Positions 41,013 to 62,130 of a stretch of 64,000 bases of DNA are shown here, in pieces; within the stretch, counting starts at the first letter, position 1, and the number at the start of each line of letters is the position of its first letter. A program made the position numbers and the translations under genes. The stretch spans positions 1-64,000 of the forward strand of contig NZ_JAODNI010000121.1 in NCBI RefSeq assembly GCF_025465255.1, in the 5' to 3' direction. A model generated the notes under the pieces. It saw nothing but the letters and a program-made list of their open reading frames with translations, did no database searches and was not told where the DNA came from. The DNA is from Pseudonocardia sp. (GTDB lineage Bacteria; Actinomycetota; Actinomycetes; Mycobacteriales; Pseudonocardiaceae).

Positions 41013-41969
41013 TCAGGGGGTGACGGGGTGGGAGGTGAGGTATCCGCCCATCCGAGTGAAGTACTCCTGCGCGCCGAGCTCGCGGCCGTCGTCGGTGCGG
41101 ACGGTCTCGATCAGCAGGCCCTTGTTGCGGCCCTTCCGCGCGTCCGCGCCCGCGACGATCACCACGCCGCCGCCCTGCCGGATGAAGATGCGGCCCGGGG
41201 TGCCGCCGAAGGGCGTGTCGGTGACGCGGGCGCGCACGATCCGCAGGCGCTCGGCGCCGTGGTAGCAGTAGGCGTTCGGGTACGGGTCGACCTGGGCGCG
41301 GACGAGGTTGAAGAGGTCGCGCGCCGGCCAGGTCCAGTCGATGCGGTTCTCCTCGTCGGTGCGGCGGTGGAAGTAGGAGGCGGCGCGGCGGTCCTGCGGG
41401 GTCCGGTCCGTCCGGCCGGCGGCGATCAGCTCGAGCGCGTCCACCGTGATCGGGCCGAACATCGCGAGCGTCCGGTCGAAGAGGTCGACGACCGTGTCCT
41501 CGTCGGCGATCGCGGTGGACCACTGCAGGACGACGTCCCCGGCGTCGAACTCCGCGTTCATCATGTGCGCGGTGACGCCGACCTCGGGCTCGTCGTTGAT
41601 CAGCGCCCAGTTCAGCGGGGCGAAGCCGGCGTAGGCCGGCAGGAGCGCGTCGTGCACGTTGAGCGTGCCGAGCCGCGGGCGGGAGAAGACCTCCGGGGAG
41701 AGCCAGGTCCGCCAGTTGGACACGACCATGACGTCCGCGTCCGCGTCCCGGACCGCGGCCTTCACCTCGTCGTCGTCCGCACGTCTGCGGACCAGCACGG
41801 GGATGTCCCGGTCCCGGGCCAGCTCGGACACCGACTCGTTGAAGATCTTCTCGTACGGGTTGTCGCTGTCCGCGTGGGTCACGATCAGCGGGACCTCGTG
41901 GCCCGCGTCGAGCACCGCCTTGATCGTCCGACGGCCCCAGGTCATGTATCCGAACGCGACGACCCGCAT
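41013..41969 (-). CDS. Hydroxyornithine N5-formyltransferase (methionyl-tRNA formyltransferase-like)
   Basis: 318 residues. Formyltransferase domain (residues ~1-205): MRVVAFGYMTWGRRTIKAVLDAGHEVPLIVTH, LGTLNVHDALLPAYAGFAPLNWALINDEPEVGVTAHMMNAEFDAGDVV with the catalytic His and Asp. The C-terminal OB-like domain (~205-318) has DWTWPARDLFNLVRAQVDPYPNAY. It lacks tRNA-specific context and is shorter than usual for Fmt paralogues, fitting the stand-alone enzymes of coelichelin-type pathways that formylate N5-hydroxyornithine from 10-formyl-THF. GAGGAGG precedes the ATG at 41969. Divergent from the ABC exporter genes, with an iron box between. Role rests on context plus family. Confidence 0.83.
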   Translation of the reverse strand: MRVVAFGYMTWGRRTIKAVLDAGHEVPLIVTHADSDNPYEKIFNESVSELARDRDIPVLVRRRADDDEVKAAVRDADADVMVVSNWRTWLSPEVFSRPRLGTLNVHDALLPAYAGFAPLNWALINDEPEVGVTAHMMNAEFDAGDVVLQWSTAIADEDTVVDLFDRTLAMFGPITVDALELIAAGRTDRTPQDRRAASYFHRRTDEENRIDWTWPARDLFNLVRAQVDPYPNAYCYHGAERLRIVRARVTDTPFGGTPGRIFIRQGGGVVIVAGADARKGRNKGLLIETVRTDDGRELGAQEYFTRMGGYLTSHPVTP

Positions 41970-43736: not shown

Positions 43737-45499
43737 GCCGGAACCGGGATCTGCTCCCCGTCGCCACCGGCCCCCGGATCCGCGGCGCCCTCGCCGGGCT
43801 CCTGGGTCCCCACCGGGGCCGGGCGGTCGTCGCGGTGCTCGCGCTCGTGGCCGGGGCCGCAACCGGGCTGCTCACCGCCCCGCTGCTGGGGCGCATCGTG
43901 GACATCGTCGCCAACCGGCAGGGCGCGTCCGCCGTGACGACGCCGGTGCTGCTGCTCGTCGCGGTCGCCGTGGCGCAGGGGCTGCTGGCGGTGCTCGGCG
44001 TGGCCCTGGTGGCCCGGGTGGGCGAGGGGATGCTCGCCGAGCTGCGCGAACGGTTCGTCGCCCGGGTCCTCGGGTTGCCGCTCGACCGCATCGAGGAGGC
44101 GGGGGCCGGGGACCTGACCTCGCGGGTCACCGCGGACGTGGCGCTGGTCGGCGAGGCGGTGCGCGAGGCCGTCCCGGAGTTCGCCCGCGCCGCGCTGGTG
44201 ATCGCCCTGACCCTCGTCGGGCTGGCCGTCCTGGACTGGCGCTTCCTGCTCGCCGCCCTGCTCGCGGTGCCCGTCCAGGTGCTCACCGCGCGGTGGTACC
44301 TGCGGCGCTCCGGACCGATCTACGCCGAGCAGCGCCGGGTCGGCGGCGCCCAGCAGCAGCAGCTCCTGGACACCGTCGGCGGGGCGACGACCGTGCGCGC
44401 GTTCGGGCTCGCGGACGCCCACGCGGCCAAGGTCCGCTCCCGGTCCGAGGACGTCGTGCGGCTCGCGCTGGACGTCGTCCGGTTCCAGACCCGGTTCTTC
44501 GGCCGGCTGAACGGGGCCGAGTTCGTCGGGGTCGCGGCGGTGCTCGCCGTCGGGTTCTGGCTCGTCCGGGACGGGTCGGCGTCGATCGGCGCGGCGAGTG
44601 CGGCGGCGCTGTACTTCATCAACCTGTTCGGGCCGATCAACCAGGTGCTCTTCCTGCTGGACACCGCCCAGTCCGCCACGGCGAGCCTCGCCCGGATCGT
44701 CGGCGTCGCGGACCTTCCGCCGCAGGAACGCCCGGCCGCTCCGGTCCGGCCGGTCGACGCGGGGGTGAGCACCAAGGGCGTCGGGCACAGCTACGTCGAG
44801 GGCCACCCCGTGCTCGACGGCGTCGACCTCGATCTCGAGCCCGGCTCCCGGGTCGCGCTGGTCGGCGCCAGCGGCGCGGGCAAGACGACGCTGGCGAAGC
44901 TGGTGGCCGGGGTGCACCTGCCCACGGCCGGGATCGTCCGGATCGGCGGCGCCACGCTCGAGGAGCAGGGCCCGGACGTCGTCCGCGAGACCGTCGCGTT
45001 GATCACTCAGGAGGTGCACGTCTTCGCCGGCCCGCTGGCCGAGGACCTGCGCCTGGCCCGCCCGGACGCGACGGACGCCCAGCTGCGGACCGCGCTCGAC
45101 GCCGTCGACGCGCTGGGCTGGGTGGAGGCCCTGCCGGAGGGGCTGGACACCGTGGTGGGCAGCGGCGGCCAGGGGCTGACCGTCGTGCAGGCCCAGCAGG
45201 TCGCCCTGGCCCGGCTGGTGCTCGCCGACCGGCCGGTCGCCGTGCTCGACGAGGCCACCGCCGAGGCGGGGAGCGCGGGCTCGCGGGTGCTCGAGCGCGC
45301 CGCGGCCCGGGCGCTCGACGGCCGGACCGGGCTGATGGTCGCCCATCGGCTGACCCAGGCGGCCACGGCGGACCGGATCGTGGTGCTGGACGCGGGCCGG
45401 GTCGTCGAGCAGGGGACGCACGCCGAGCTCGTCGCCGCGGACGGTCGGTACGCCCGGTTGTGGGCCGCCTGGTCGGACGAACGGGACGAAAGACCGTGA
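43733..45499 (+). CDS. ABC exporter half with intact Walker motifs (siderophore export, subunit 2)
   Basis: 588 residues, six transmembrane helices (~25-330) then a nucleotide-binding domain. Walker A VALVGASGAGKTTLAKLVAG, Q-loop LITQEVHVF, Walker B VAVLDEATAEAGS and the H-loop MVAHRLTQA are all intact. The signature is degenerate: LTVVQAQQVALARLVL in the place of LSGGQ, and the D-loop reads AEAGS. This complements subunit 1, which has the signature but not the rest: the pair forms one working composite site. ATG at 43733 overlaps the previous stop by 4 bp. Confidence 0.9.
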   Translation: MSRNRDLLPVATGPRIRGALAGLLGPHRGRAVVAVLALVAGAATGLLTAPLLGRIVDIVANRQGASAVTTPVLLLVAVAVAQGLLAVLGVALVARVGEGMLAELRERFVARVLGLPLDRIEEAGAGDLTSRVTADVALVGEAVREAVPEFARAALVIALTLVGLAVLDWRFLLAALLAVPVQVLTARWYLRRSGPIYAEQRRVGGAQQQQLLDTVGGATTVRAFGLADAHAAKVRSRSEDVVRLALDVVRFQTRFFGRLNGAEFVGVAAVLAVGFWLVRDGSASIGAASAAALYFINLFGPINQVLFLLDTAQSATASLARIVGVADLPPQERPAAPVRPVDAGVSTKGVGHSYVEGHPVLDGVDLDLEPGSRVALVGASGAGKTTLAKLVAGVHLPTAGIVRIGGATLEEQGPDVVRETVALITQEVHVFAGPLAEDLRLARPDATDAQLRTALDAVDALGWVEALPEGLDTVVGSGGQGLTVVQAQQVALARLVLADRPVAVLDEATAEAGSAGSRVLERAAARALDGRTGLMVAHRLTQAATADRIVVLDAGRVVEQGTHAELVAADGRYARLWAAWSDERDERP

Positions 45500-45602: not shown

Positions 45603-46613
45603 ATGGCTCGCCCGAGCTCCCCATCCGCCCGCCCGAGACGAGCCGGGTTCCTGCGAACCCTCGCCGCGGGGGCGCTCGCCCTCGTTGCCGTCGCCGGGTG
45701 TGGCAGCAGCGAGCAGGCCTCGACGGCCACCCCGCAGCCCGGGGCCCCGGCCACCGCCGGTGCGGCGGAGTTCCCCGTGACGCTCAAGCACCAGTTCGGC
45801 GAGACGACGATCCCGGCGCAGCCGACGCGCGTCGTGACCGTCGGCTACAACGAGGGCGACTTCCCGCTGGCCCTCGGCGTCGTCCCGCTCGGCGAGCGGG
45901 AGTTCTCCGGCGGCTTCGCCTGGCAGGACCGGCCGTGGGCGCAGGCCGCCAAGGGCGGCGCGCAGCCGGAGGTCGTCGGCGGCGACGAGATCCAGTTCGA
46001 GAAGATCGCCGCATTGGCGCCGGACCTGATCCTCGGCGTGTACTCGTTCATGGACCAGGCCACCTACGACACCCTGGCCAAGATCGCGCCGACCGTCGGC
46101 CCGCCCGGTGACGGCACGAAGGCCGCCACGTGGCAGGAGCAGACCCGGATCACGGGCCAGGCGCTCGGGCTGACCGCCAAGGCCGAGCAGGTCGTGGCGG
46201 ACACCGAGACGAAGCTGGCGCAGGTCAAGGCCGCCCACCCGGCGCTGGACGGCAAGAACCTGGCGCTGGACTTCGACGTCGAGGGTGTCCCGTACAGGCT
46301 CGGCACCGACGACCTGCGGTCCCAGCTGTTCGCGGGCCTCGGCCTGAAGGTCGGGGACACCACCGAGACGCTCACCGCCGAGACCCTGCAACCGCTGGAC
46401 CAGCAGGCCCTGATCGTCATGGGCGTGACGCAGCAGCAGCTCGCCGGGAACCAGCTCTTCCAGAGCCTGAACGTCGTGAAGAACGGCAAGACGCTCTACC
46501 TGGGCGACTACACGACGTCGTTCGCCGGAGCGCTCGGCTACAGCAGCCCGCTGAGCCTGCCCTACGCCGCGGACCTCGTCGCCCCGCAGCTGCAGACGGC
46601 CCTCGCCGGCTGA
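45603..46613 (+). CDS. Iron-siderophore-binding ABC lipoprotein
   Basis: 336 residues, high-affinity receptor outside the membrane for ferric siderophore. Lipoprotein signal: basic start, GFLRTLAAGALALVAVAGC with the lipobox VAGC. Periplasmic-binding-fold type III (FepB/BtuF-like) follows: TTIPAQPTRVVTVGYNEGDFPLALGVVPLGE, GGDEIQFEKIAALAPDLILGVYSFMDQATYDTLAKIAPTV, and the C-terminal lobe from VEGVPYRLGTDDL. AGGAGG lies 8 nt before the ATG. No permease (FecCD-like) or ATPase gene for import is in the window, so the rest of the importer must be elsewhere. Convergent with the NRPS gene. Confidence 0.92.
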   Translation: MARPSSPSARPRRAGFLRTLAAGALALVAVAGCGSSEQASTATPQPGAPATAGAAEFPVTLKHQFGETTIPAQPTRVVTVGYNEGDFPLALGVVPLGEREFSGGFAWQDRPWAQAAKGGAQPEVVGGDEIQFEKIAALAPDLILGVYSFMDQATYDTLAKIAPTVGPPGDGTKAATWQEQTRITGQALGLTAKAEQVVADTETKLAQVKAAHPALDGKNLALDFDVEGVPYRLGTDDLRSQLFAGLGLKVGDTTETLTAETLQPLDQQALIVMGVTQQQLAGNQLFQSLNVVKNGKTLYLGDYTTSFAGALGYSSPLSLPYAADLVAPQLQTALAG

Positions 46614-46665: not shown

Positions 46666-49600
46666 TCAGCCCGTGACCGACCGAAGCAGCGCGACGAGCT
46701 CCTGCGCCAGCGCCGCCGCCGTCTCCCGGTCGTACGCGGCGAGCCGGTGGGTGAGCTCCACCGGCACCGCGGCGCCGCCGGAGGTCTCGAAGAACCCGAC
46801 GGTCAGGTCCGCGGTGGACCCGCCCACGTCGACGGCGTCGAGCGCGCCGAGCACGGACCGTTCGGCCCCGAGGTCCGCCTGCTCGTGGTGCACGAGCAGC
46901 ACCGGCGGCCTGCGCAGCCCGGTCGCGTCCGCGACGTCGGAGAACCCGGTCTCCTGGTGGTCCAGGGCGGCGAGGTTCGCGGTGCGGACCCGGCCGAGGA
47001 GCGCGTCGAACCCGTCGCCTTCCACCCGCACGGGCAGCACCAGCACGTTCGCCACACAGCCGACGACGTCGACGAGCGACGCCTCGGTCCGGCCCGCCGC
47101 GAACGACCCCACGGGCACCACCGGGCCCGCGCCGCGCCGGGCGAGGACCGTGGCCAGACCCGCCTGCAGGACCATGAACATGCTGGTCCGCGTCCTGCGG
47201 GCGAGCACATCGACCCCCGCGCGGAGCTCGGTGTCCAGTTCGAACGCGACCGTCGCCGCGGTCTCGTCCCCTCCCGGATCCGTAAGGGGTGCGCCGTCGA
47301 GGGCCTCCCGCCAGAACGCGAGCGCCCGGGCGTGTCGGCTCTCCGGGTTCGCGGGGTCGCCCCCGAGGGCTCCGGCCCAGCGGGCGTAGTCCGAGTACCC
47401 GACGGGCAGCGGCGCCCGGTCCGGCGCCCGGCCGTCCCGCCGGGCCTCGTACGCCGTCGCGAGGTCCCGCAGCAGCGGGACGACTGACCACTCGTCGACG
47501 CCCAGGTAGTGCAGGACGAGGAGCAACTCACCGCCGGCGAGGACCGCCCGGAACGGGGGTTCGGCGGTGAGGTCGAACGGCTCCCGGGCCAGCTCGGCAA
47601 GCGGGCGGTCCGAGCGGGCGAGGCCGGGCCCGCGGCCCTGAACGTGGCGCCGTCCCTCCGGGGAGAACACCGTGCGCAGCGGCTCGTGCCGGGCGACGAG
47701 GTCGTCGACCGCCGCGGCCAGGGCCGCCTCGTCGTAGGGCTCGTCCGGGCGCAGGACCAGCGCGTGGTCCGGCCGCGGGGCCATCCGGTGGCGCTCCCAG
47801 CGCCACCGCTGCGCCGGGGCCGGCGGTTCGGACTCCTCCGGCGGCCCGGACGGGGTCAGCGCGGGCCGGGTCGACGGCCGCTGCGCCAGCACCTCGACGA
47901 GCCCGGCGACGGTCGGCGCGTCGAACACGTCCCGCACGCCCAGGTCCGCCCCGAACCGCGTACGCACCCGTCCGATCAGCCGCATCGCCGCCATCGAGTG
48001 CCCGCCCAGGGCGAAGAAGTCGTCGTGCACCCCGACCTCGGGCAGCCCCAGGACCTCGGCGAACACCGCGGCTAGCCATTCCTCCTCGGGCGTGCACGGG
48101 GCGCCGTCACCGGTGAGCCCCGACCGGTCCGGGGCGGGCAGGGCGCGGCGGTCCAGCTTGCCGTTCGGGGTGAGCGGCACCGGCCCGTCGAGCACGACGA
48201 CGATCGCCGGGACCATGTACTCCGGCAGCCGCCGCGCGGCCGCGGCCCGGACCTCCGCCGGGTCGAGCGGCCCATCCTCCGGCACCACGTAGCCGACGAT
48301 CCGGGTCATGTCCCCGGACCCGTCGGCGACGGCGACGGCCTGCCGGATCCCTGCGTGCCCGGTCAGCGCGGACGCGACCTCGCCGAGCTCGACGCGGAAG
48401 CCGCGGACCTTGACCTGGTCGTCGTCGCGGCCGAGGAAGTCGACGTTCCCGTCCCGGCGCCAGCGCGCCCGGTCGCCGGTGCGGTACAGCCGGGTCCCGT
48501 GCGGCCCGAACGGGTCCGCGACGAACCTCTCCGCCGTCAGGCCCGGCCGCCCGAGGTAGCCGCGGGCCAGCCCGCGCCCGCCCACGTAGAGGTCCCCGAC
48601 GACCCCCGGCGGCACCGGCCGCAGCCGCGAGTCCAGCACGAAGCAGGTGGTGTTGGGGTCCGGAACGCCGATCGGCACCGCGGCCGCCCAGCCCGGTTCG
48701 GCCTGCCACAGCGTGGAGTTCACGGTCGCCTCGGTGAGCCCGTACGCCGCGATGAGGTTCAGCCGCTCCGCCCACCGGCCGATCAGGTCCGGCGGCACCG
48801 TCTCGGTCCCGACCAGCACCGTCAGGCCCGCCGGCAGCTGCTGGTCCGGCGGCAGGGCCGCGACCAGCGACGGCGGCAGGATCCCGTGCGTCACGCCGTG
48901 TTCGGCGAGGAAGCCGGTGAGCGGCGGGCCGGCCACCCGGGCGTCGTCCGGGCAGATCACCAGCCGCGCACCCAGGCCGAGCGCCATCGTCAGCTCGAAC
49001 ACGACGACGTCGAAGCCGACGGAGGCGAACTGGAGCACAGTGGCGTCGGACGTGACGCCCATCCGGTCCTCGGCGGTGGCCGCGAGGCTGGTGATGCCGT
49101 CGTGCGGGACGACGACGCCCTTCGGCCGTCCCGTGGAGCCGGACGTGTAGATGACGTAGGCGGCGAGGTCCGTGCCCCATGGCCGCTCCCGTTTGCGGGG
49201 TGCAGCGGGCGCTGCGCCCTCGTCCGGCACGACGAGCCGCTCCGGGCCGCCGACGACCAGCCCCAGCTGCGCCGCGGTGCCGACCAGCAGCCGGGCCCGG
49301 GAGTCCGCGAGCAGGTGGCCGATCCGCTCCGGCGGGTGCTTGAGGTCCAGCGGGAGCCAGGCCGCGCCCAGCTTCAGCAGCCCCAGCACGGTCGCGACCA
49401 TCGCGGCCGAGCGCGGCATGGCTACGCCCACGACGTCCTCCGGCCCGATCCCCCGTGCGGCCAGCAGCCGAGCGGCGCCCTCGGCCCGGCCGTCGAGCTC
49501 GGCGTAGGTGAGCGTGCCGCGCCCGTCCGTGACGGCCGGGGCGTGGGGGCGCTCCCGGACCTGCCGCTCGACCATGTCGATCAACGTCTCGGCCGGGACG

Positions 49601-52600
49601 TCACGCACGTCCCGGCGCCCGGCGAACCGCTCGAGGACGAGCTCGCGCTCTCCCACGACGGCGACGTCCAGCTCGGCGACGCCGATCCGCGGGTTCGCCG
49701 CGACCGCCGCTGCCACCCGGGCGAACCGCTCCCCCAGCCGCGCGACGGTGTCCCGCTCGAACAGCTCCGCCGAGTACTCGAGGTGCAGCGTCGCCGCCCT
49801 GTCCCGTTCAACGCCGTCCGGCTCGGCGAACGCGAAGACGAGGTCGAACTTCGCCGTCGCCTCCTCGACGGGCTCCTCGACCGCCTCCACGCCCGGCAGC
49901 GCGAGCAGGTCCCCGCGGCGGGCATGGTGGGCCACCATCACCTGGAACAGCGGGTTCCGGGACAGCGTCCGGGACGGGTTGAGCCGCTCGACGACCGCCT
50001 CGAACGGCACGTCGGCGTGGGAGAACGCGGCCAGCCCGGCGTCGCGGACGCGCGCGGCGAGCGTCGCGAAGTCCGGGTCGCCGGAGACGTCCGCGCGCAG
50101 GACGACGGTGTTGACGAAGAACCCGACGAGGTCGTCGAGCCGCGCGTCGGTCCGGCCGGTGACCGGGGTGCCGAGCGGGACGTCGTCCCCGGCGCCGAGT
50201 CGGTGCAGCAGCGCCGCGACTGCCGCGTGCAGCACGAGCAGCAGGCTGGCGCCGGTGTCGTCGGCGATCCGGCGGAGCCCGGCGAGCGTCTCCGGGGCGA
50301 GCGGGACGTCGACGACCCCGCCGGCGGAGGTCGGCCGCGCGGGCCGCGGCCGGTCCGTCGGGAGCGTCAGCTCGTCCGGGGCGCCGTCGAGCGTGCGGGC
50401 CCAGAAGTCGAGCTGCCGGGCGGCGAGGCTCGTCGGCTCGGCCGGGTCGCCGAGCCGCGCGGCGTGCCAGAGCGCGTAGTCCGCGTACTGCACCGGCAGC
50501 GGCGCCCACTCCGGTGCCCGGCCCTCGCGCCGAGCCGCGTAGGCGGCGGCGAGATCGTCCAAGAACGGGCGATCGGACCACTCATCGGTCGTGATGTGGT
50601 GCAGCAGCAGGACGAGGACGTGTTCGGCGCCGTCCTGGATCAGCGCGGCCCGGATCGGGAGCTCGGCCGTCAGGTCGAACGGCCGCGCGAGCTCCGCGGC
50701 CACGTCGTTCACCTGCGCGAACGGCACCCGGAGATCGTCGCGGACCTCCTGGTACGGCGTCCCGTCGACGACGGTGAAGACGGTCCGCAACGCCTCGTGC
50801 CGGACCGCGACGTCCTGCAGCGCGGCGTCCAGCGCGGCTCCGTCCACGTCCCCGCGCAGCCGCAGCACGATCGGGAAGTGGTACGCCGCGCCGCCTCCGG
50901 CGCCGCCGAGCTGCTGGACCAGCCAGAGCCGTTGCTGCGCCGCGGAGAGGGGCAGCAGCGCCGGGCGCTCGAGCGACCCCAGCTCGGGCCCGACCACCGC
51001 CTCGCGCTCGGCCGCCCGCAGGGCGAGTTCCGCGGGGGTCGGCGCCTCGAAGAGGTCCCGGAGCGTGAGGTCCGCGGCGAGGGCTGTCCGGGCTCGGCTG
51101 AGTAGCCGGGTGGCGACCAGCGAGTGCCCGCCGAGATCGAAGAAGTCGTCCTCGGGCCCCACCGCGTCCAGGCCCAGGACCTGCGCGAACAGCCCGCACA
51201 GCTGCTCCTCGGCGCGGCTGCGCGGCGGCCGCCCGGCCCCGGCGGTGACCGGCTCCGGTCGGGGCAGCGCGCCGACGTCGAGCTTGCCGTTGACCGTGAG
51301 CGGCAGCTCCGGGACCGGCACGAGGACGGCCGGGACCATGTGGTCCGGCAGCCGGTCCCGCAGCGCCGCTCGGACCTCCGCGAGATCGTGCGTCGTCACC
51401 GAAGGCACCACGTACCCGACGAGCCGTGCGAGACCCCCGGGCCCGGACCGGTCCGCGACGACCGCCGCCCGAGCGACCGCGGGGTGCGCGGTGAGCGCCG
51501 CGGCCAGCTCGCCCGGCTCCACCCGGTAGCCGCGGATCTTCACCTGGTCGTCCGTGCGGCCGAGGAAGTCCAGGATGCCGACCGGTCGGCGGCGCACCAG
51601 GTCGCCGGTGCGGTACATCCGGCCGCCCGGTACGGCCGGGTCGGCCACGAACCGCTCCGCGGTCAGCGCGTACCGGCCGAGGTAGCCGCGCGCGAGGCCG
51701 TCACCGGCGATGTACAGCTCGCCCGGGACGCCGTCCGGCACCGGTCGCAGCCACGGGTCGAGGACGTGCGCGCGGGTGTTGGTGATCGGTCGGCCGACCG
51801 CGGGGGTCGGGCTGTCGTCCGTGCCCGCGCCGAGCGCGTTGATCGTGTACTCGGTGGGGCCGTAGAGGTTGTAGCCCAGCGTGCCGGGGGTGTCCCGCAG
51901 CGTCGTCCACACGTCGTCGGACACGGCCTCGCCGCCGAGCAGAACCAGCGGTGGTGTGTGCCCGGCGAGCAGGCCCGTCTCGAACAGGGCGGCCGCGTAG
52001 GTCGGTGTCACGTTGACGACGTCGACCTCGTGCTCCGCGCAGTACGCGACGAGCGCGGTCGCGTCGCGGCGCAGCTCCTCGTCGCACACGTGCACCTCGT
52101 GTCCCTCGACGAGCCAGAGCAGCTCCTCCCAGGACATGTCGAAGGCGAACGAGACGGTGTGCGCGATCCGCAACCGCCGCCCACCCGCCGTAGCGACAAC
52201 CGGTTCGAAGATCTCCGCACGGTGGTTGAGCTGCATGTTCGTCAGCCCGCGGTACGGCGTGACGACGCCCTTGGGCCTCCCGGTCGAGCCGGACGTGTAG
52301 ATCACGTAGGCGGGCAGGTCGAGCCGGTCCGGATTCGTGCGGGCGAAGTTGCCCGACCCCGCATCGGCCAGCTCGGCGTCCGTCAGCGGCCCGGGATCGA
52401 GGGCCGCGCGCTCGGCGGCGGTCCCCGGCTCGTCGAGCACGACGGCGGGCACGCCGGCCGCAGCCAGCGGGCCGGCGACCCGCTCGACCGTGAGCAGGCA
52501 GACCGGTGCCGCGTCCGCCATCGTGGACACCAGTCGCTCGGTCGGGTGGTCGAGCTCCAGCGGCAGGTAGGCCGCGCCGGTGCGCAGCACCGCGAACAGC

Positions 52601-55600
52601 GCGACGACGGTCTCGACGGACCTGGGCACGGCCAGCGCGACGACGCGTTCCGGCCCGGCCCCGCGGGCTCTCAGCAGCCGCGCGGTGCGGTTCACCGCGG
52701 CGTCCAGCTCGGCGTAGGTCAGCCGCTCCGGGCCCGAGACGAGGGCGATCTCGTCCGGGACCAGGGCGGCGCGCTCGCCGAGCAGGTCCGCGATCGTGTC
52801 CGTCCCGACGTCGACGGCCCGGCCGTCCCGGGCCGCGAGGACCGCCTCGCGCTCCGCGGGCAGCAGCGCGTCGAACGCCGCGACGGGCGCGTCCGGTGTC
52901 GCCAGGACCTGGTCGAGCAGCGCGACGAGCCGCGGCAGGTAGCTCTCACCGGCGTCGCCGAGGGTGTGGGCCAGGGTCAGCCGCATCCGCGCGCCCGGCG
53001 TCACGATCAGGTTCAGCGGGTAGTGCGTCGCGTCCGCGTTGGCCATCGCGGTGATCCCGTGCCGTGCGCCCAGCTCCGCGACCCGCTCCTCGCCGCCCTC
53101 GGGGCGGTAGACGAACAGGGTGTCGAACAGGGTGCGGTGCCCGGACAGGCGCTGGATCTCGCCGAGACCGGTGGGCTCGTGCGGTTCCAGGGCCATCCGC
53201 TCGTCCTGGACCCGGCGCAGTAGCGCGGCCAGCGGCTCGCCGGGGCGGAAGGTCATCCGGGCGGGCACGGTGTTCAGGAACAGCCCGATCGCGGACTCGA
53301 CGTCCGGGACCGCGGTCGGGCGCCCGGCGACGGACGTGCCGAACACGACGTCCGTGCGTCCGGTCGCGGCCCCGAGCACGAGGCCCCAGACGGTGCTGAG
53401 CACGGTGTTCACCGTGACGCCCAGCTCGCGGGCCAGGTCGCGGACCCGCGCGGTGGTGTCCGCGGACAGCTCGACCTCCCGCTCCCGAGGCGCGCCGGTC
53501 CGGGTTGCGTCACCCGAGCCCGGGCCGATCAGCGTGGGTTCGTCGAGCCCGGCCAGCGCGGTCCGCCAAGCCTCCGCGCTCTCGGGCCCGTCCCGCGACG
53601 CGAGCCACGCCAGGTGGTCCCGGTAGGAGCCGGCCGGCGCGAGCGGCTCCCCGACGTAGGCTGCAAACAGCCGCTCGACGAACAGCCACGCGGACCAGCC
53701 GTCCCACAGCAGCAGGTGCCGGCCGATCACCAGCCGGTCCCGCCGGCCGTCTCCATCACCCAGCCGGATCAGCAGCAGCCGGAACAGGGGCGGGTGGTCC
53801 AGGGCGAAGTGGGTGGCGCGGTCCGCGGCCATGACCTCGTCGAGCCGCCGGGCCTGCTCGTCCGCGGGCAGGTCCGAGAGGTCGACCTCGGTCACGGGCG
53901 GGGCGAGCGCGCCGGGGACGAACTGCACCGGCCCGTCGAGGCCCTCCCCGGTGAACCCGGCGCGGATCGCGTCCGTCCCGGCCATGACGGCGGCGCACGC
54001 GGCGCGGAGCCGGTCGAGGTCGAGCCGGTGGTCGAGGTCGATCGACTCCTGGACCGTGTAGACGTCGGCCTCGACGCCGTCGAGCGTCGCGTGGAAGTAG
54101 AGCCCCTCCTGCAACGGCGACAGCGGCCAGACCTCGGCGACGGGCGCCGGGCTGATCCGGTTCACCTGCGCGAGGACCGCCGGGTCCGCGGCCGGGAGCG
54201 GTGTGATCCCCTCCGGTCCGGTGCGGCCGGCGAGCGCCGCCAGGCCGGCCGGGGTGCGGGCGGCGAAGACCTCCCGCGGCCCGACGTCCAGGCCCGCCCG
54301 CCGGGCGCGCGAGGACACCGAGATCGACGAGATGCTATCCCCGCCGAGGGCGAAGAAGTCGTCGTCCGCGTACACGGACTCCCGGCCCAGCACCTCGGCG
54401 AACACCGCGCAGAACAGCCGCTCCGCGTCGGTCCCGGGCTCGCGCCGTCGCACGCCGATCGTCGCGACGGGCGCCGGGAGGGCCTTCCGGTCGAGCTTGC
54501 CGCTGGGGCTCAGCGGGAGCTCCTCGAGCAGCACCACCGCGGAGGGGACCATCGCCGCGGGCAGCCGCTCGGCCAGCATCGCGAGCAGCGCGGGACCGGT
54601 GATCGCCGCCTGTGGTACCTCCCGGCCCCCGGTGACCGGGATGTACCGCGGGTCGGGATCATGGGGCGCCGGCACCACGTACGCGACGAGTGTGTGTCCC
54701 GCCCCCTCCCGCCGCGCCGCGACCGCGGCCCGCGCGACCTCCGGCAGCCCGGTCAGCGCGGCCTCGATCTCGCCGTGCTCCACCCGGTTCCCGCGGATCT
54801 TGACCTGGAAGTCGGTGCGGCCCAGGTACTCGAGCTCCCCCGTGCGGGAGCGCCGGACCACGTCACCGGTGCGGTACATCCGCGCCCCCGGCGTGCCGAA
54901 GGGGTTCGCGACGAAGCGGTCCGCGGTCAGGCCGGGCCGGGCGTGGTAGCCCCGCGCGAGCTGCGCCCCCGCGAGGTACAGCTCCCCCGCGACGCCGTCC
55001 GGGACCGGCCGCAGGCAGCCGTCGAGCACGTGCAACCGGGTGTTCCAGACCGGACGTCCGAGGGGGACGGACGAACCGTCCGCCGTCGAGTACGGGTGGT
55101 ACGTGACGTCGACGGCGGCCTCGGTCGGTCCGTAGAGGTTGTGGATCGGGACGCCCGTCAGCGCCGTCCACCGCGCGGCCGCGGATCCGGGCAGCGCCTC
55201 ACCTGACGCGAACACCCGCCGCAGCGGGGCCGCCCAGGACGGGTCCGCGGTCACGGCGTCGGAGGCGAGGAACCCCTCCAGCATCGCCGGGACGAAGTGC
55301 AACGTCGTGATCCGCTCGGCGCGCACGAGCCCGGCCAGGTACTCCGGGTCCCGGTGCCCGTCCGGCCTCGCGAGGACCACGGCGGCGCCCTGGCAGAGCG
55401 CCCAGAAGAACTCCCACACCGAGACGTCGAAGCTCGCCGGGGTCTTCTGCAGCACCCGGTCGTCCGCGGCCAGGCCGTACTCCGCCTGCATCCACGCGAG
55501 CCGGTTGACGATCGCGCGGTGGCTCACCACCACGCCCTTCGGCCGCCCGGTGGAACCCGAGGTGTAGATCAGGTACGCGGCGTCGTCGGGGTCCGTGGCC

Positions 55601-58600
55601 GGGGCGTCCGCCGGGCCGGTCTCGTCCGTGACCAGCAGCGATTCCGGACCGGCGGGCACCCGCCCGGCGGCCTCCGCGGTGGTGACCACCGTGTCCACAC
55701 CCGCGTCGGCGATCATGAACGCGAGCCGCTCGGCGGGATAGTCCAGGTCCAGCGGCAGGTAGGCGGCCCCGGAGCGGAGCACGCCGAGCAGGGCGACCAT
55801 CAGCTCCGCGGAGCGCGGCACCGCCACCCCGACGACGGACCCGGGGCCGGCCCCCCGTTCCCGCAGCCGACGGGCGAGGGCTCCGGCGCGGCCGTCGAGC
55901 TCGGCGTAGGTGAGGGAGCGCCCCTCGGCCACGACCGCGGTGGCGTCCGGGGTACCGGCGACCTGGGCGGCGATCCGCGCGGTCAAGGTCGTGGCCGGTA
56001 CTAGGTGCTCGGTGTCCCCGGCCGGCTCCGGCGCGTCCCGCAGCCGGATCGACGCGACCGGCGCCGCGAGGTCGTCGGCGAGTGCCGTCAGGGTGCGCCG
56101 CAGTTGTGCGACGACGATCCCCGCCGCCTCGGCGGACACCCGCGCGGCGTCGTGCTTGAGCGTGAACTCCAGCTCCCGGCCGGTCGAGGCGATCAGCGCG
56201 ATCGGATAGTGGACCGCGTCGACCACGTCGATCCGCACGCCGGACGGACGGCGGTAGTTCTCCACGACCAGCAGCGAGTCGAACAGCTCCGGCAGCCCGG
56301 TGGCGCGCTGGACGTCGCCGAGCTGGACCTGCTGATGGTCGAGCAGCGCCGCCCGGGTGTCCTGGGTGCGGCGCAGGACCGTGGCCAGGGACTCCCCCGG
56401 CGCCCACCGCATCCGGGTGGGCAGGGTCGCGATGAAGAGGCCGACCGCGTCCTCCAGGCCGGCGACCGCCGCGTCGCGGCCGGACACGGTGCTGCCGAAC
56501 ACGACGTCCGGGCTGCCGGTGAGCCCGCCGAGCAGCAGGCCCCACGCCCCGTGCAGCACGGTGCCGAGGGTCAGGCCGCGCTCCCGGGCACTCGCGAGCA
56601 GCGCCGAGGTGGTGCGCTCGTCGAGGGTGAACCGGACCTGTCGGTGCGGCCGGAACCCCGGTTCGGCGATCGGGGACGGCGCCGCGAAGGCGTCCGCGAG
56701 CCGGGTCGGCTCGTCCAGCCCGGCGAGCTCGGCGCGCCACACCTCCTGCGCGGCCGCCTCGTCGCGCCGGGCGAGCGCGGTGAACCAGGCGCGGTGCCGC
56801 GCCAGGGCGTCGCCGCCCCGCGAGGTGCCGCCGAGGATCTCGTCCACGAGGAGGGCGACGGACCAGCCGTCGAGGACGATGTGCTGGAAGGTGAGGACCA
56901 GCCGGGCCCGGTCGGGGCCGAGCCGCAGCAGAGCCACGCGCAGCAGCGGCGGCCGGGCGAGATCGAACGGCGCGGCCCGCTGCGCGGCGATCGCCGCGTC
57001 GACCTCGGCCGCGTCGTCCAGGGAGGGGGCCACGTCCAGCACGGTCCACGGCAACTCGGCGTGCGTCGCGACGGCCTGCACCACGGTCCCGTCGGCCCGC
57101 TGCGCGAACCCGGTACGCAGCTGCGGGTGCCGGTCCAGCACCGCCTGCGCCGACGCCCGCAACGCGGCCGGATCGACCGGTCCGCGCAGGTCCAGGACCT
57201 CCTGAAGGGTGTAGACGTCCGCGGCGCCCTCGCCGAGGGCGGAGTGGAAGAAGAAGCCCTCCTGCAGCGGCGACACCGGCCAGACGTCCGCGATCTCCCC
57301 GACCGCGGCCAGGGCGTCCCGCGCGGTGGCGTCCAGCTCGGCCAGCGGGCCGTCCGGGACCTCCACCACCGTCTCGTGCAGCGTCACCACCGGGGCCAGC
57401 TCGGCCGCGGTCCGGTGCGTGAACAGCTGCCGCGGCGTGACGACCAGCCCCGCGGCGCGCGCCCGGACGACGAGCCGGATCGAGATGATGCTGTCCCCGC
57501 CGAGGGCGAAGAAGTCGTCGTCGACGCCGATCCCCGGCACCTCCAGGACCTCGGCGAACAGCGTGCACAGCAGCTCCTCGCGCGGGGTGCGCGGCGGCCG
57601 CCCGCCGACCTGCGCCGCGAGGTCCGGGACGGGCAGGGCGTTGCGGTCGATCTTGCCGTTGGGCATCACCGGGAGCGCCGGCAGCGGGACGACGGCGGCC
57701 GGGACCATGTACTCCGGCAGCCGCTCCCGCAGGTGCTCGCGCACGGAGCCGACGAGCGCGGCGACGTCGCGGAACGGGGCCGGCCGGTTCGCGAGGTCTT
57801 CGGGGCGCGCGGCCACCGACGGCAGGTGGACGGGCCCGGCGTCCACGCCGTCCCGGGTGAGGAGCAGGTCGAACTCCCCGGCCGTCCCGCCGGCCGTCCA
57901 GGCCGCGGCGCTGCGGTAGCCCGCCTCGTCCGCGGCCCGCGCCACGGCCTCCGGGTCGATCCCACGCTCCTGCGGCGCCGCCAGGCCGTCGATCGCGGCG
58001 AGGGCCGCGAGATCGTCGGCGAGCCGGGCGTTGGGGATCCCGCGCAGGCGCAGCGCGTCCGGACGACGGCGACGCAGGTGTTCGGCCAGGTCGTGCGAGG
58101 TCCAGCCGGCGGGCCAGGTGAGCTGAACGGCCTCGATCCCCGGCGCCCGTTCCCCGGCCCGCAGGACGACGTCGTAGCGGTATCGGCTCAGCTCGTCGTG
58201 TGCCGTGGCCCGCTTGAGCCGCAGGTCCGCCGACCCCAGCTCGGGGATCGTCGCCGCGGCGGCCGTGAAGAAGTCCGGCTCGCAGAGCAGTTCGCCCTCC
58301 CACGCCACCGACGCGTCGACGGCCCGGCGCAGTGTCTCAGGGGATGCCGCCTCCCCGTCGGACGTTCCGGCGCGGGCGGTCTCCACCCCGGCGCGGAACG
58401 TGCGGAGCAGGCCGGCGTGCCGGACGTCGCCGACGAGGATCGCGCCCCCGGGCGCGAGCAGCCGCGCGGCCTGCCGCAGCACGTCCAGCAGGTACTCCGG
58501 GCCCGGGAAGTACTGGGCCACGGAGTTGATCACGATCGTGTCGAAGGGGCCCTCGTCCGCGAGGCCGGCCAGCTCGTGCGCCGGGCGGGCTTCGAGGACC

Positions 58601-60351
58601 ACCCGGCCGTCGAGCCTCGGGTCCGCCGCGACCCGCCGGCGCAGCGCCGCGACGGCCTCCTCGGACAGGTCGAACCCGCGGTAGAGCGAGCAGCCCGGGG
58701 CGAGCTCGGTGAGCAGCAGCCCACTGCCCACCCCGACCTCTAGCAGCCGGTCCGGGGCGAGCTCGCGGATCCGGGAGACCGTGGCGTCCCGCCAGGCCCG
58801 CATGTCCTCGCGCGGGATCGGGGCGCCGTCGTAGGTGGAGTTCCACCCCGCGAAGCCGTCCTCGAACGCCCCGTTCTCGAACTTCCCGGCCTCGTCGTCG
58901 GCGGAGGTGGCGCCGTAGAGCAGCTCGTGCAGCTCCTTCCACGCCGCCACCTGCTCCGGCGTGCTCGACCCGAGCTCCGGCACCACGTACGCGGCCAGCC
59001 GCCGGTCCCCCGGCGTGATCTCCCGGACCTGCACGGTCGCCTGCGCGACGCCCGGATGCGCCGCCAGCACGGACTCGATCTCCCCCGGCTCGATCCGGTA
59101 CCCGCGGATCTTCACCTGGTCGTCGACCCGGCCGAGGAAGTCCAGGCTCCCGTCCGCGAGCCGCCGGACGAGGTCCCCGGTCCGGTAGAGCCGCTCGCCG
59201 GGCGCCCCGGACGGGTCCGCCACGAAGCGCTCCGCCGTCAGGCCCGCGCGTCCCAGGTAGCCGCGGGCCAGCCCCGGCCCCCCGAGGTAGAGCTCGCCCT
59301 CGACGGCGGGCTGCAGCCGCTCGTCGAGGACGTGCGCCGAGGTCAGCGGGTCCGGCACGCCGATCGGGACCGACGTGCCGTGCAACCGGTCCGGGTGGCT
59401 CTCGCCGAGCGTCGAGTTCACGGTGGCCTCGGTGGGCCCGTAGGCGTTGTACATCCGCCTGCCCCGCCCCCACCGCGCCACCAGCTCCGGCGACACCCGT
59501 TCGGTCCCGGCGAGCAGGGTCGCCGGCGGCAGCGTGACGTCCGGTGGCATCGCGGCGAGCAGCGCGGGTGGCAGGATCATGTGCGTGACGCCCTGGGCGT
59601 GCGCGTACTCGGCCAGCTCGGGTCCCGGCACCCGCCGCTCCGCGGGCACGACGACGAGCCGCCCGCCGGACAGCAGCGCCTGGCAGAGGTCCCAGAACGC
59701 GACGTCGAAGCTCGGTGACGCGAACTGCAGGATCCGGCTCTCCGGCCCGACGCCGAGCCGCTCGGTCTGGGTGGCCACCAGGCCGGTGACGCCGCTGTGG
59801 GTCAGCACCACGCCCTTGGGCCGGCCCGTCGACCCGGAGGTGTAGATCAGGTACGCGGCCGAGCGGACGTCCAGGTCCGCAGGCGGCAGCGTGCCCGGGG
59901 CCGCGGCGATCTCCGCGGCGGAGACCGGGTCGTCCAGCAGCAGGAGCCGCGGCGCGCCGGGCAGCTCGCCGGCGAGCCCGGCCACCGTGACGACGACGGC
60001 GGGGGCCGCGTCCTCGAGCATGAAGGCCAGCCGCTGCGCGGGGTAGTCCGGGTCCAGCGGCAGGTACGCCGCGCCCGCCCGGAGCACCGCGACCTGCGCG
60101 ACGACCATGCCCACGGACCGCGGCAGCGCCAGCGCGACCACGGTCTCCGGGCCCGCGCCCCGCTCCCGCAGCACGTGGGCGAGCCGGGCCGAGCGCGCGT
60201 CGAGCTCGGCGTAGGTGAGCCGCTCCTCCTCCAGCACGACGGCCACCGCGTCCGGGGCGCGCCGGACCTGCTCGGCGAACAGGTCGGGCCAGGTGCGCAG
60301 GCCCTCGACTGGACCGGTCGACAGGGGGCGGGACATCTCGCTCTGGGTCAC
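46666..60351 (-). CDS. Four-module siderophore NRPS: A-nMT-T / C-A-T / C-A-T / C-A-T / C*
   Basis: 4561 residues. Module 1: A1 (~20-455 and its C-lobe 865-905) interrupted by an N-methyltransferase (~460-860, [12 protein letters not shown] near 533), T1 [11 protein letters not shown] (~945). Module 2: C1 (~1024-1455, QHIVLDGW), A2 (~1480-1960), T2 GGDSISS (~2000). Module 3: C2 (~2075-2505, RHLLLWDGW), A3 (~2540-3030), T3 GGHS (~3070). Module 4: C3 (~3132-3570, HHITTDEW), A4 (~3610-4078), T4 GGHS (~4113). C* (~4177-4561, HYLGVDEW) ends the protein; no thioesterase. Hand-aligned specificity codes: A1 DVWILAAVNK, A2 DVWHFSLVDK (serine), A3 DMENLGLINK (N5-hydroxyornithine type), A4 DVFIVVAVNK. 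Likely product N-Me-X-Ser-hydroxyOrn-X, X probably formyl-hydroxyOrn (inference). C2 and C* lack the second His. GTG start after GGGAGA. Confidence 0.95.
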
Positions 60352-60414: not shown

Positions 60415-60627
60415 CTAGCGGCTCGAACGCTCGACCAGGCTGCGGGGACGGAGGTCCGTCCAGTTCGCCTCGACGTGCTCGAGGCACTCCGCCCGGCTCG
60501 CCGGGCCGTGCGCGACGGTCCAGCCCGCCGGCACGTCGACGAACGTGGGCCAGAGCGAGTACTGGCCCTCGTCGTTGACCAGCGCGTGGAACGTGCCGTT
60601 CTCGTCGTCGAAGGGGTTCGTGGACAC
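60415..60627 (-). CDS. mbtH: MbtH-like protein
   Basis: 70 residues, the small chaperone that binds and activates NRPS adenylation domains. Seen: [40 protein letters not shown] and [22 protein letters not shown], carrying the family's NPF, SLWP and the two Trp that contact the A domain. GTG at 60627. It sits between the hydroxylase gene (42-bp gap) and the NRPS gene (63-bp gap) on the same strand, so it is made with its client. Likely required by one or more of the four A domains. Confidence 0.97.
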
Positions 60628-60669: not shown

Positions 60670-62082
60670 TCAGCGGGCGGTGGTGGCCACCGGGTCCGCC
60701 GGCGCCTCGCCACGGATCGGCTCGGCGGGCCCGGCGTCCGGCACGAGCGCGCCGGTCAGGGAGTCCACGATCTCGCCCGAGCGGGCGGCGACCGTGGACA
60801 GCAGCGTCGAGGTGATGCCGTGCGTGTGCTCGGTGGCGCCCTGGACGTAGATCCCGGCGGAGAGCGGGGCGGCGCCGGCGGCGCGGTGGGTGGCGATCCG
60901 GTAGTCCCGCAGCACCTGCAGCCGGCCGGCCTCGTCCCGGGCGCACGCGCCGGCCAGCGCCGGGTCGAGCAGCCAGAGGGGGTCGCTGGAGCGGTAGCCC
61001 GTCGCGTACACGACGACGTCCGCCGCCAGCACCTCGCGGGAGCCGTCGATCAGGGACTCGACGGCCAGTTCGACGCGGTCCCCCATGTCGACCACGTCCG
61101 CCACCCGGGACACGTTGTGGAACTGCAGGCGCTCCCGGCCCGCGACCCGCTCGTGGTAGTGCCGGCGGTAGAGCTCCTCGATCAGCTCCGGGTCGACCAC
61201 GGAGTAGTTCGTGTTGCCGTGGTAACCCATGATCCTCTGCTTGACGTCCGCGGGGGCGTCGTAGAAGTCGTCGACGGCGGACGGGTCGAAGATCCGGTTC
61301 GCGAACGCGCTGTCGTCCGCCGGGCTGTAGCCGTAGCGGGCGAACACCGCGCAGACCTCGGCGTCCGGGAACGTCCGGTGCAGGTAGTCGACCGTCTCGG
61401 CCGCGCTCTGCCCCGCGCCGACCACGGCGAACCGCTTCGGGGTGGTCCCGGCGAGCTCGGGGATGCGGGTCAGCAGGTCCCGGTTGTGCCAGACGCGCCG
61501 GCCCAGGACGGCCTCGCGCGGCACGTTCGGGGTCAGGCCGGTCGCGAGCACGACGTTGCGGGCCCGGACCCGGACCGGCGCGCCGTCCGCGCGGCTCGCG
61601 ACGACGTCGACCAGGCCGACCGGCTCCCCGGCGGCCTCGCGGACCGGTACCACCTCGGTGACCTCCGCGCCGTAGTGCACCCGCTCCGTGAAGCTCCCCG
61701 CGGCCCACTCGAGGTAGTCGTGGAACTCCAGGCGCGTGGGGAACACGCTGCCGTAGTTGATGAAGTCGACCAGCCGGTCCCGGGCGTGCAGGTAGGACAG
61801 GAAGCTGAACCGGCTCGTGGGGTTGCGCAGCGTGGCCAGGTCCTTGAGGAAGGAGATCTGCATCGTGGCGTCCTCGAGCAGCATGCCGCGGTGCCACCCG
61901 AAGCGGTCCTGCCGCTCGACAAAGCAGTACGTGAGCCGCGCGCCCTCCCCGACGGCCCCGTTGTGCTCCTCGATCGCGACGGCCAGCGCGAGGTTCGACG
62001 GCCCGAACCCGATGCCCACGACGTCCACGTGTTCGATCCCGGCGACGTCCCCGGTCGTGCGCTCGGTGTGCGGCTCGCTCAT
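60670..62082 (-). CDS. L-ornithine N5-monooxygenase (siderophore hydroxylase)
   Basis: 470 residues, FAD/NADPH-dependent N-hydroxylating monooxygenase of the SidA/PvdA/CchB class, making N5-hydroxyornithine for hydroxamate iron ligands. Seen: FAD motif VDVVGIGFGPSNLALAVA, FGWHRGMLLEDATMQISFLKDLATLRNPTSRFSFLSYLH, the substrate loop DDSAFANRIFDPS, NADPH motif FAVVGAGQSAAETVDYL, DVVVYATGYR and a late THGITSTLLS. All are class-typical. The start at 62082 is preferred because GAGAGG lies 6 nt upstream; an ATG at 62088 directly abuts that site. First gene of the NRPS operon, preceded by an iron box. Confidence 0.93.
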   Translation of the reverse strand: MSEPHTERTTGDVAGIEHVDVVGIGFGPSNLALAVAIEEHNGAVGEGARLTYCFVERQDRFGWHRGMLLEDATMQISFLKDLATLRNPTSRFSFLSYLHARDRLVDFINYGSVFPTRLEFHDYLEWAAGSFTERVHYGAEVTEVVPVREAAGEPVGLVDVVASRADGAPVRVRARNVVLATGLTPNVPREAVLGRRVWHNRDLLTRIPELAGTTPKRFAVVGAGQSAAETVDYLHRTFPDAEVCAVFARYGYSPADDSAFANRIFDPSAVDDFYDAPADVKQRIMGYHGNTNYSVVDPELIEELYRRHYHERVAGRERLQFHNVSRVADVVDMGDRVELAVESLIDGSREVLAADVVVYATGYRSSDPLWLLDPALAGACARDEAGRLQVLRDYRIATHRAAGAAPLSAGIYVQGATEHTHGITSTLLSTVAARSGEIVDSLTGALVPDAGPAEPIRGEAPADPVATTAR

Positions 62083-62130
62083 CGTCATCCTCTCGGCACC
62101 CCGACGGGGTACGGGTCACGGCAGCCTTAC

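Follow-up and report, generated by a model that had tools for sequence, protein, structure and literature searches.

Loss of the second motif histidine in condensation domains that feed hydroxyornithine modules of actinobacterial siderophore synthetases

The right-hand third of a 64,000-nucleotide stretch of Pseudonocardia sp. DNA (contig NZ_JAODNI010000121.1, positions 1 to 64,000 of the forward strand; hereafter the window) holds a siderophore cluster built around a nonribosomal peptide synthetase (NRPS) of 4561 amino acids (aa), whose second condensation (C) domain, C2, has leucine in place of the second histidine of the HHxxxDG active-site motif. We show that loss of this peptide-bond histidine goes with an acceptor residue, N5-hydroxyornithine (hOrn), that offers a free N-OH group, and that it is fixed in a clade of C domains; on the sequence evidence, C2 is most probably a variant C domain that is functional and forms hydroxamates.

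The synthetase and its second condensation domain

The adenylation (A), methyltransferase (MT), carrier (T) and C domains of the synthetase are placed as follows.

46666..60351, minus strand: NRPS gene, 4561 aa, domain order A1-MT-T1-C1-A2-T2-C2-A3-T3-C3-A4-T4-C4
59038..60219, minus strand: A1 core, code DVWILGAVN, probably N5-acyl-N5-hydroxyornithine (acyl-hOrn)
58408..58776, minus strand: MT domain in module 1 (Methyltransf_12 and related), S-adenosylmethionine motif LEVGVGSG at residue 537
56866..56886, minus strand: C1 motif QHIVLDG (in QHIVLDGWS), second His kept
54727..55914, minus strand: A2 core, donor residue of C2, code DVWHFSLVD, presumably Ser
52843..54138, minus strand: C2, condensation domain by profile match (PF00668)
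53695..53721, minus strand: C2 active-site motif R2211-H-L-L-L-W-D-G-W2219 (RHLLLWDGW)
53713..53715, minus strand: Leu2213 (CTG), position of the second, catalytic His, codon read from the sequence
51466..52722, minus strand: A3 core, acceptor residue of C2, code DMENLGLIN, which we take to be hOrn
50581..50601, minus strand: C3 motif HHITTDE (in HHITTDEWS), second His kept
48337..49512, minus strand: A4 core, code DVFILGAVN, probably acyl-hOrn
47491..47511, minus strand: C4, terminal, motif HYLGVDE (in HYLGVDEWS), second His replaced by Tyr

As we assign them, the A codes run acyl-hOrn-like, Ser, hOrn and acyl-hOrn-like, and those of A2 and A3 bear out the proposal, made in a preliminary description of this DNA, that C2 couples Ser to hOrn. 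For A3 the aligner returned DMWNLGLIN, shifted by one column; DMENLGLIN was read by eye from the raw residues FDMSWEE. The A2 and C2 matches begin 587 aa apart, a span filled by the A core and the T domain. No epimerization (E) domain was found in the NRPS, which has only four PF00668 stretches, all accounted for by C1 to C4; this leaves two possibilities, donors that stay L or C domains that accept both configurations. T1 (motif at residue 947) and T2 (54334-54357) carry the motif LGGDS that is usual before E domains.

The preliminary description read the second histidine as leucine in C2 and as retained in C1 and C3, and both readings hold: MAFFT placed the four C motifs of the window in identical ungapped columns, tblastn aligned the C2 motif gap-free to domains that keep both histidines (HH domains; for example in L025, L029 and L030, L numbers denoting the related loci compared here), and phmmer aligned C2 to PvdL and SrfA-C with the motif again gap-free, so that no histidine comes into register. 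A one-residue insertion that would keep it in register (RHxxxxDG) is excluded by these ungapped alignments and by 14 of the 140 relatives that share the loss (described below), which have no histidine at either position (Q in 11, R in two and E in one at the first); the other 126 keep the first histidine. C4, on which the preliminary description was silent, lacks the second histidine as well.

C2 has the hallmarks of a C domain. It scores 214.1 bits against a PF00668 cut-off of 30.6; its AlphaFold2 model has the full C fold (mean predicted local distance difference test score, pLDDT, 84.7; predicted template modelling score, pTM, 0.80), with a strand that ends at H2212 and a helix that begins at the motif Gly; and the best Foldseek match of this model is the SrfA-C C domain (8f7h; E 1.3e-35, TM 0.76/0.82). 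Identity to seven orthologous lines is 59-78% for C2, 53-66% for C1 and 61-73% for C3, and in 22 C2 domains chosen from the window and 80 related loci the Asp-Gly pair, the residues beside it and many further positions do not vary.

C2 differs from the established classes nonetheless. SrfA-C, PvdL C3 and FscG C3, of the L-CL and D-CL classes, share its fold, a DG or DE pair and the surrounding motifs but keep the second histidine of the canonical HHxxxDG, where C2 has L2213. The sequence HLLLWDG does not match the DxxxxD of heterocyclization (Cy) domains, and C2 feeds an hOrn A domain rather than one for Ser, Thr or Cys; nor is C2 of the dual E/C type, as HHxxxDG is not intact and the N-terminal HH[I/L]xxxxGD was not seen by eye. 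The glycopeptide X domain does not serve a module as its elongating C domain, whereas C2 sits in the order T-C-A with A3 directly following. The two share a natural replacement of the second histidine, by Leu in C2 and by Arg in the X domain as the latter is described in a passage of PMC1894796. The class into which C2 does fall is one defined in this analysis, the His-less hOrn-feeding C clade: it has a residue other than His at the second position, an hOrn A domain downstream and a place inside the supported clade.

Histidine loss and the hydroxyornithine acceptor

We surveyed C domains together with the A domains that follow them in related loci, counting identical domains once and excluding five window-duplicate loci, domains with fewer than 250 (C) or 200 (A) profile positions, and pairs more than 620 aa apart. 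Across 555 distinct C-A pairs the second histidine is missing from 140 of 148 C domains that feed hOrn and from none of the 404 that feed other A domains, three pairs with gapped motifs being set aside; it is kept in the remaining eight hOrn-feeding domains and in all 404 others. The hOrn class here takes in the near-codes DMxNMGLIN, which contribute eight His-less rows with QV..WDG and one HH row (L196). Loci drawn solely with A-domain queries chosen for independence from C2 (the window A3 and the last A domain of L142) give the same contrast: 50 of 58 hOrn-feeding C domains are His-less, as against 0 of 149 others, with two gapped. Most of the best matches in related loci carry a motif of the same class, with H(L/F/V/M)xxWDGWS or some variant.

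The loss is present in 12 named actinobacterial genera, mostly within one supported C-domain clade; these comparisons confirm it as a feature of a clade wider than the single enzyme then described. It is seen with donor codes of several kinds (Ser, Thr and others), whether or not an E-sized gap lies upstream, and donor type or an upstream E domain was dropped as its cause on that ground. By contrast, the C domain that precedes an A domain with an acyl-hOrn-like code (DV[FWL]xxG[AC][VT]N, its meaning inferred) keeps the second histidine in 100 of 100 pairs, presumably because the N-OH of that acceptor is already acylated and only the alpha-amine is left. The phylum-wide A3 search gave matches in 11 of 396 genomes, and four matches on Proteobacterial plasmids (L146-L149) were rejected as hOrn modules because they are other A domains. 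Four very long lines (L126, L127, L156 and L168), with open frames of about 7700-8200 aa, have two hOrn modules each, both His-less (HF and HL).

Trees of 151, 91 and 70 rows were made; the 70-row tree does without the last hOrn A domain of L142, which is identical to the other in that protein. Of the 51 His-less rows sampled for the C-domain tree, 49 group in a single clade with a Shimodaira-Hasegawa-like approximate likelihood ratio test (SH-aLRT) value of 100, and two, L177 (EL) and L144 (QV), lie outside it. In a second, smaller tree, built without the motif columns and leaving out four named odd rows, the His-less group needs three changes, at least two of them forced by starred branches. 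Several independent losses were considered and set aside: two trees place some His-less rows apart, yet a single-clade constraint for all of them is not rejected and even has the higher likelihood (approximately unbiased test, p-AU 0.835).

The eight hOrn modules that keep both histidines are themselves informative, as each holds the last A domain of its protein: five are followed by a thioesterase-like GxSFG motif, and three (L142, L154 and L155) by a longer tail without it. Siderophores can carry a cyclic hOrn lactam at such an end, and a C domain of the HH type would then be expected, since the lactam uses its own N-OH, so that the chain must sit on the alpha-amine. A terminal hydroxyornithine lactam, an example of such a product, is described for kasichelin in part of PMC12305651.

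Four lines (L142, L144, L154 and L155) contain both kinds: the upstream hOrn module is His-less and the last hOrn module is HH. Their paired hOrn A domains share 100% (L142), 92% (L144), 88% (L154) and 82% (L155) identity, whereas the paired C domains share 29-32% and sit in different parts of the C tree. Judged from these alignments, the A domain in such lines has been copied and the C domain is of another kind, which is the strongest evidence for the interpretation given below; the contrast is strongest in L142, in which the acceptor-selecting A domains are letter-for-letter the same. L142 lies on plasmid pLS2-1 of Pseudonocardia sp. HH130630-07, in a salicylate/hOrn siderophore cluster that includes a salicylate synthase and a formyltransferase; its two hOrn A domains match at all 386 residues, as though gene conversion had copied one of them recently, and their C domains share 32%.

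Two simple accounts of this distribution were rejected. Acceptor identity alone does not explain it, as eight hOrn modules keep HH, one of which has the very A domain of the His-less module in the same protein; and position in the line alone is insufficient, as the His-less modules of CchH-type lines, L133 and L157 are terminal. In-module methylation was not used as proof of delta linkage: of 74 modules in which a regular expression located the carrier motif, only 17 showed an MT motif.

A proposed role for the His-less domains

In published accounts of this residue, the second histidine of FscG C3 lies 3.6 Å from the acceptor amine and Gln in its place cuts activity to about 1% (PMC8097023), and AmbB H953A is inactive, with EntF, TycB1 and SrfA-A cited as equally dependent and VibH and VibF as not dependent (PMC8968710). 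The residue is termed invariant in C domains in part of PMC1894796, the motif is given as almost always HHxxxD outside the heterocyclization type in a section of PMC10212144, and the role of the residue (base, acid-base shuttle or positioning) is presented as debated in the relevant section of PMC11546977. No published description of a His-less hOrn clade was found in the literature searched, most subscription journals being outside its reach. A conserved clade of this kind, tied to a weakly basic hydroxylamine acceptor, makes the role of the second histidine directly testable.

We consider it likely that C2 is a working C domain that acylates the delta-N-hydroxylamine of hOrn bound to its peptidyl carrier protein (PCP), giving a hydroxamate rather than an alpha-amide; what is measured is the correlation, from which we infer regiochemistry and mechanism. 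The donor chain, which here would end in Ser, would be joined to the delta-N(OH) of hOrn as Ser-C(=O)-N(OH)-hOrn. At neutral pH most molecules of an N-alkylhydroxylamine are unprotonated, and the alpha effect makes such a group a strong nucleophile. Since it attacks more readily than an alpha-amine that carries a proton, the histidine would be dispensable: a general base, or a histidine that positions the alpha-amine, would be unnecessary and might even favour the wrong nitrogen. The first histidine would not serve as a substitute, since 14 of the 140 domains lack it too. Instead, a hydrophobic residue at the histidine position and the Trp before the Asp may reshape the acceptor pocket for the side chain; W2216, together with L2214, L2359, R2385, D2205 and W2075, is nearly invariant across the clade and seldom found in the HH domains set against it (35 clade rows versus 46 HH rows in one comparison and 35 versus 20 in another), and the shape of a pocket presenting the side chain might depend on W2216 and L2213. 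The alpha-amine of hOrn would be left free to close a diketopiperazine at release, as in erythrochelin; as ring closure needs this free amine, Ser would sit on the N-OH in the window product as it does there. A gene for an ornithine N5-monooxygenase adjoins the NRPS cluster genes, which also speaks for this reading.

More generally, the balance leans toward a natural C subtype that would make hydroxamates through the hOrn side-chain hydroxylamine, the catalytic histidine having been dropped by evolution where the nucleophile is a hydroxylamine. Where the preliminary description had called for another route, another domain or a non-standard mechanism, the last of these is favoured, a substitute domain is not needed, and a different bond is preferred to the one it had assumed.

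Several points weigh against hydroxamate formation by C2. The linkage is argued from architecture, composition and the structures of erythrochelin, scabichelin and coelichelin. The loss, by the trees, has one or few origins rather than 140, so that little of the support is independent in the phylogenetic sense; and since L142 and L154 are closely related (89% across some 3000 residues), the lines with both kinds amount to three cases at most. All loci were found through similarity to C2 or to hOrn A domains, with LWDGWSAW among the six seeds, and a sample biased to relatives gives counts that are not population frequencies, the within-protein contrast being what matters. The hOrn modules sampled are all from Actinomycetota, and pyoverdine, which carries alpha-linked hOrn, is outside the sampled set. 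Furthermore, the His-less hOrn modules of L133 and L157 end in a thioesterase motif and the eight of CchH type end their proteins, so that position alone fails to separate the classes; the thioesterase ends of L133 and L157 are compatible with a delta-linked last residue. Finally, part of a review gives coelichelin a composition (two Thr) unlike the one that we take for it (PMC9854754), and coelichelin is not relied on here.

Of the other explanations, the best placed, which we regard as unlikely, is that C2 has no catalytic activity and does no more than position the carrier proteins, while the hydroxylamine attacks the Ser thioester without acid-base catalysis or another enzyme makes the bond in trans. 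Hydroxylamines do readily attack thioesters, and the lost residue is near-essential elsewhere, at least in the accounts of FscG C3 (about 1% in PMC8097023) and AmbB (none in PMC8968710); a dead scaffold, however, would be expected to lose more, and conservation in C2 extends over the DG pair, the flanking motif and a good part of the domain, and the model has a full C fold.

We think it improbable, too, that the loss is a functionless marker of descent that occurred once in an ancestor and was inherited together with the hOrn A domain. The single clade of 49 of the 51 His-less domains in the tree, and a single origin that is not rejected, are what such a marker would produce; but identical or near-identical hOrn A domains are paired with unrelated HH domains in the same protein, which means that C and A have recombined apart and that the C type varies from module to module, and the absence of a residue near-essential elsewhere would hardly persist in 140 distinct, conserved domains if the reaction could not do without it.

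There is little room for a third explanation, in which the first histidine, H2212, a water or some other base lets C2 form an ordinary alpha-amide. A water was proposed in the part of PMC8097023 concerned with this step, VibH and VibF tolerate loss of the second histidine by the account in PMC8968710, and most His-less domains (126 of 140) do retain the first; the remaining 14 have none at either position, and an alternative base leaves unexplained why the loss is confined to hOrn acceptors and why, in last modules, the same A domain is paired with an HH domain. A sequencing or assembly error, or a decaying pseudodomain, is refuted: CTG at L2213 is two base changes from any His codon, 140 distinct domains have a residue other than His, and C2 is well conserved, so that on this evidence the loss is neither error nor decay.

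If hydroxamate formation by the clade is true, alpha or delta linkage could be read off this motif residue as from a code, and genome miners could predict from it how hOrn is linked, and hence hydroxamate number and diketopiperazine closure; the clade would be a natural experiment on the second histidine in ordinary peptide-bond formation and a part for engineering hydroxamates into peptides.

Related synthetases, predicted product and neighbouring genes

The window NRPS has the code order and terminal C domain of the erythrochelin/foroxymithine type. The closest counterpart in architecture, L120, is probably the erythrochelin synthetase EtcD of Saccharopolyspora erythraea: like the window it has the codes acyl-hOrn/Ser/hOrn/acyl-hOrn, a His-less C domain before hOrn (HLVLWDG in L120) and an HY domain at the end (HYLGIDE in L120). 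In erythrochelin, hOrn and acyl-hOrn form the diketopiperazine and Ser sits on the delta-N(OH) of hOrn; the synthetase has E domains in modules 1 and 2. The window NRPS lacks these and differs from the erythrochelin type in having no room for E domains, an MT domain in module 1, no starter C domain and a formyltransferase nearby. L120 has E-sized gaps at the places where T1 and T2 of the window are without E domains.

Albachelin- or scabichelin-type lines (Amycolatopsis L116 and L117; S. scabiei L103, which we take to be linked to scabichelin) share with the window the order acyl-hOrn/Ser/hOrn and the His-less C domain; they are longer (at least five modules seen in L103, six in Amycolatopsis), have the code DAWEGGLVD (by its place, cyclic hOrn) after a C domain that keeps the second histidine, and show no terminal HY C domain in the stretches seen. 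In the Amycolatopsis lines, with A1 in L051-L078 and the rest in L116 and L117, a His-less C domain precedes hOrn at position 3 and a QH C domain precedes the last residue; residue 3 can be a hydroxamate only with the preceding Ser on its delta-N. The MT domain sits in module 1 (acyl-hOrn) in the window; many of these relatives have a long gap in the hOrn module, some with an MT motif there.

The lines that by architecture are of the type of CchH, the coelichelin synthetase (L134, L136, L145, L159, L160, L161, L184 and L188) have HLLLWDGWS before hOrn as in the window, and differ from it in having three A domains, a Thr-like donor code (except L161), hOrn as the last residue and a tail too short for a thioesterase. 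CchH is given as lacking a thioesterase domain in part of PMC9854754.

C4 is probably a diketopiperazine-release domain. Terminal C domains with Tyr at the second histidine position also occur in L036-L039, L041, L042, L044, L120 and many Streptomyces lines (HY; also GY, SY, RY and AY). In the tree, eight of nine sampled rows of this kind form a separate supported clade (SH-aLRT 100), the ninth (L155, HQ) lying apart on a long branch; these terminal Tyr domains are a second group of His-less C domains, here probably with a role in release. Three loci with the DVFILGAVN code (L121, L123 and L040) have a terminal domain that keeps HH.

The predicted product of the window NRPS, with fhOrn for N5-formyl-hOrn, is (N-Me)fhOrn-Ser-[N-delta]hOrn-fhOrn, which would be a formylated, N-methylated compound of the erythrochelin/foroxymithine type. 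The genes around the NRPS gene are these.

41013..41969, minus strand: formyltransferase (PF00551/PF02911)
43829..45499, plus strand: ABC transporter, membrane and ATPase parts (PF00664, PF00005), start not fixed
45603..46613, plus strand: iron/siderophore-type ABC substrate-binding protein (PF01497, E 2e-22)
60415..60627, minus strand: MbtH-like protein, 70 aa (PF03621, E 3e-29)
60670..62088, minus strand: L-ornithine N5-monooxygenase by family, source of hOrn (PF13434, E 1.3e-108)

The formyltransferase is a possible source of the N5-formyl groups on residues 1 and 4, and its presence near the NRPS gene suggests N5-formyl residues, as in foroxymithine, rather than the N5-acetyl residues of the erythrochelin type.

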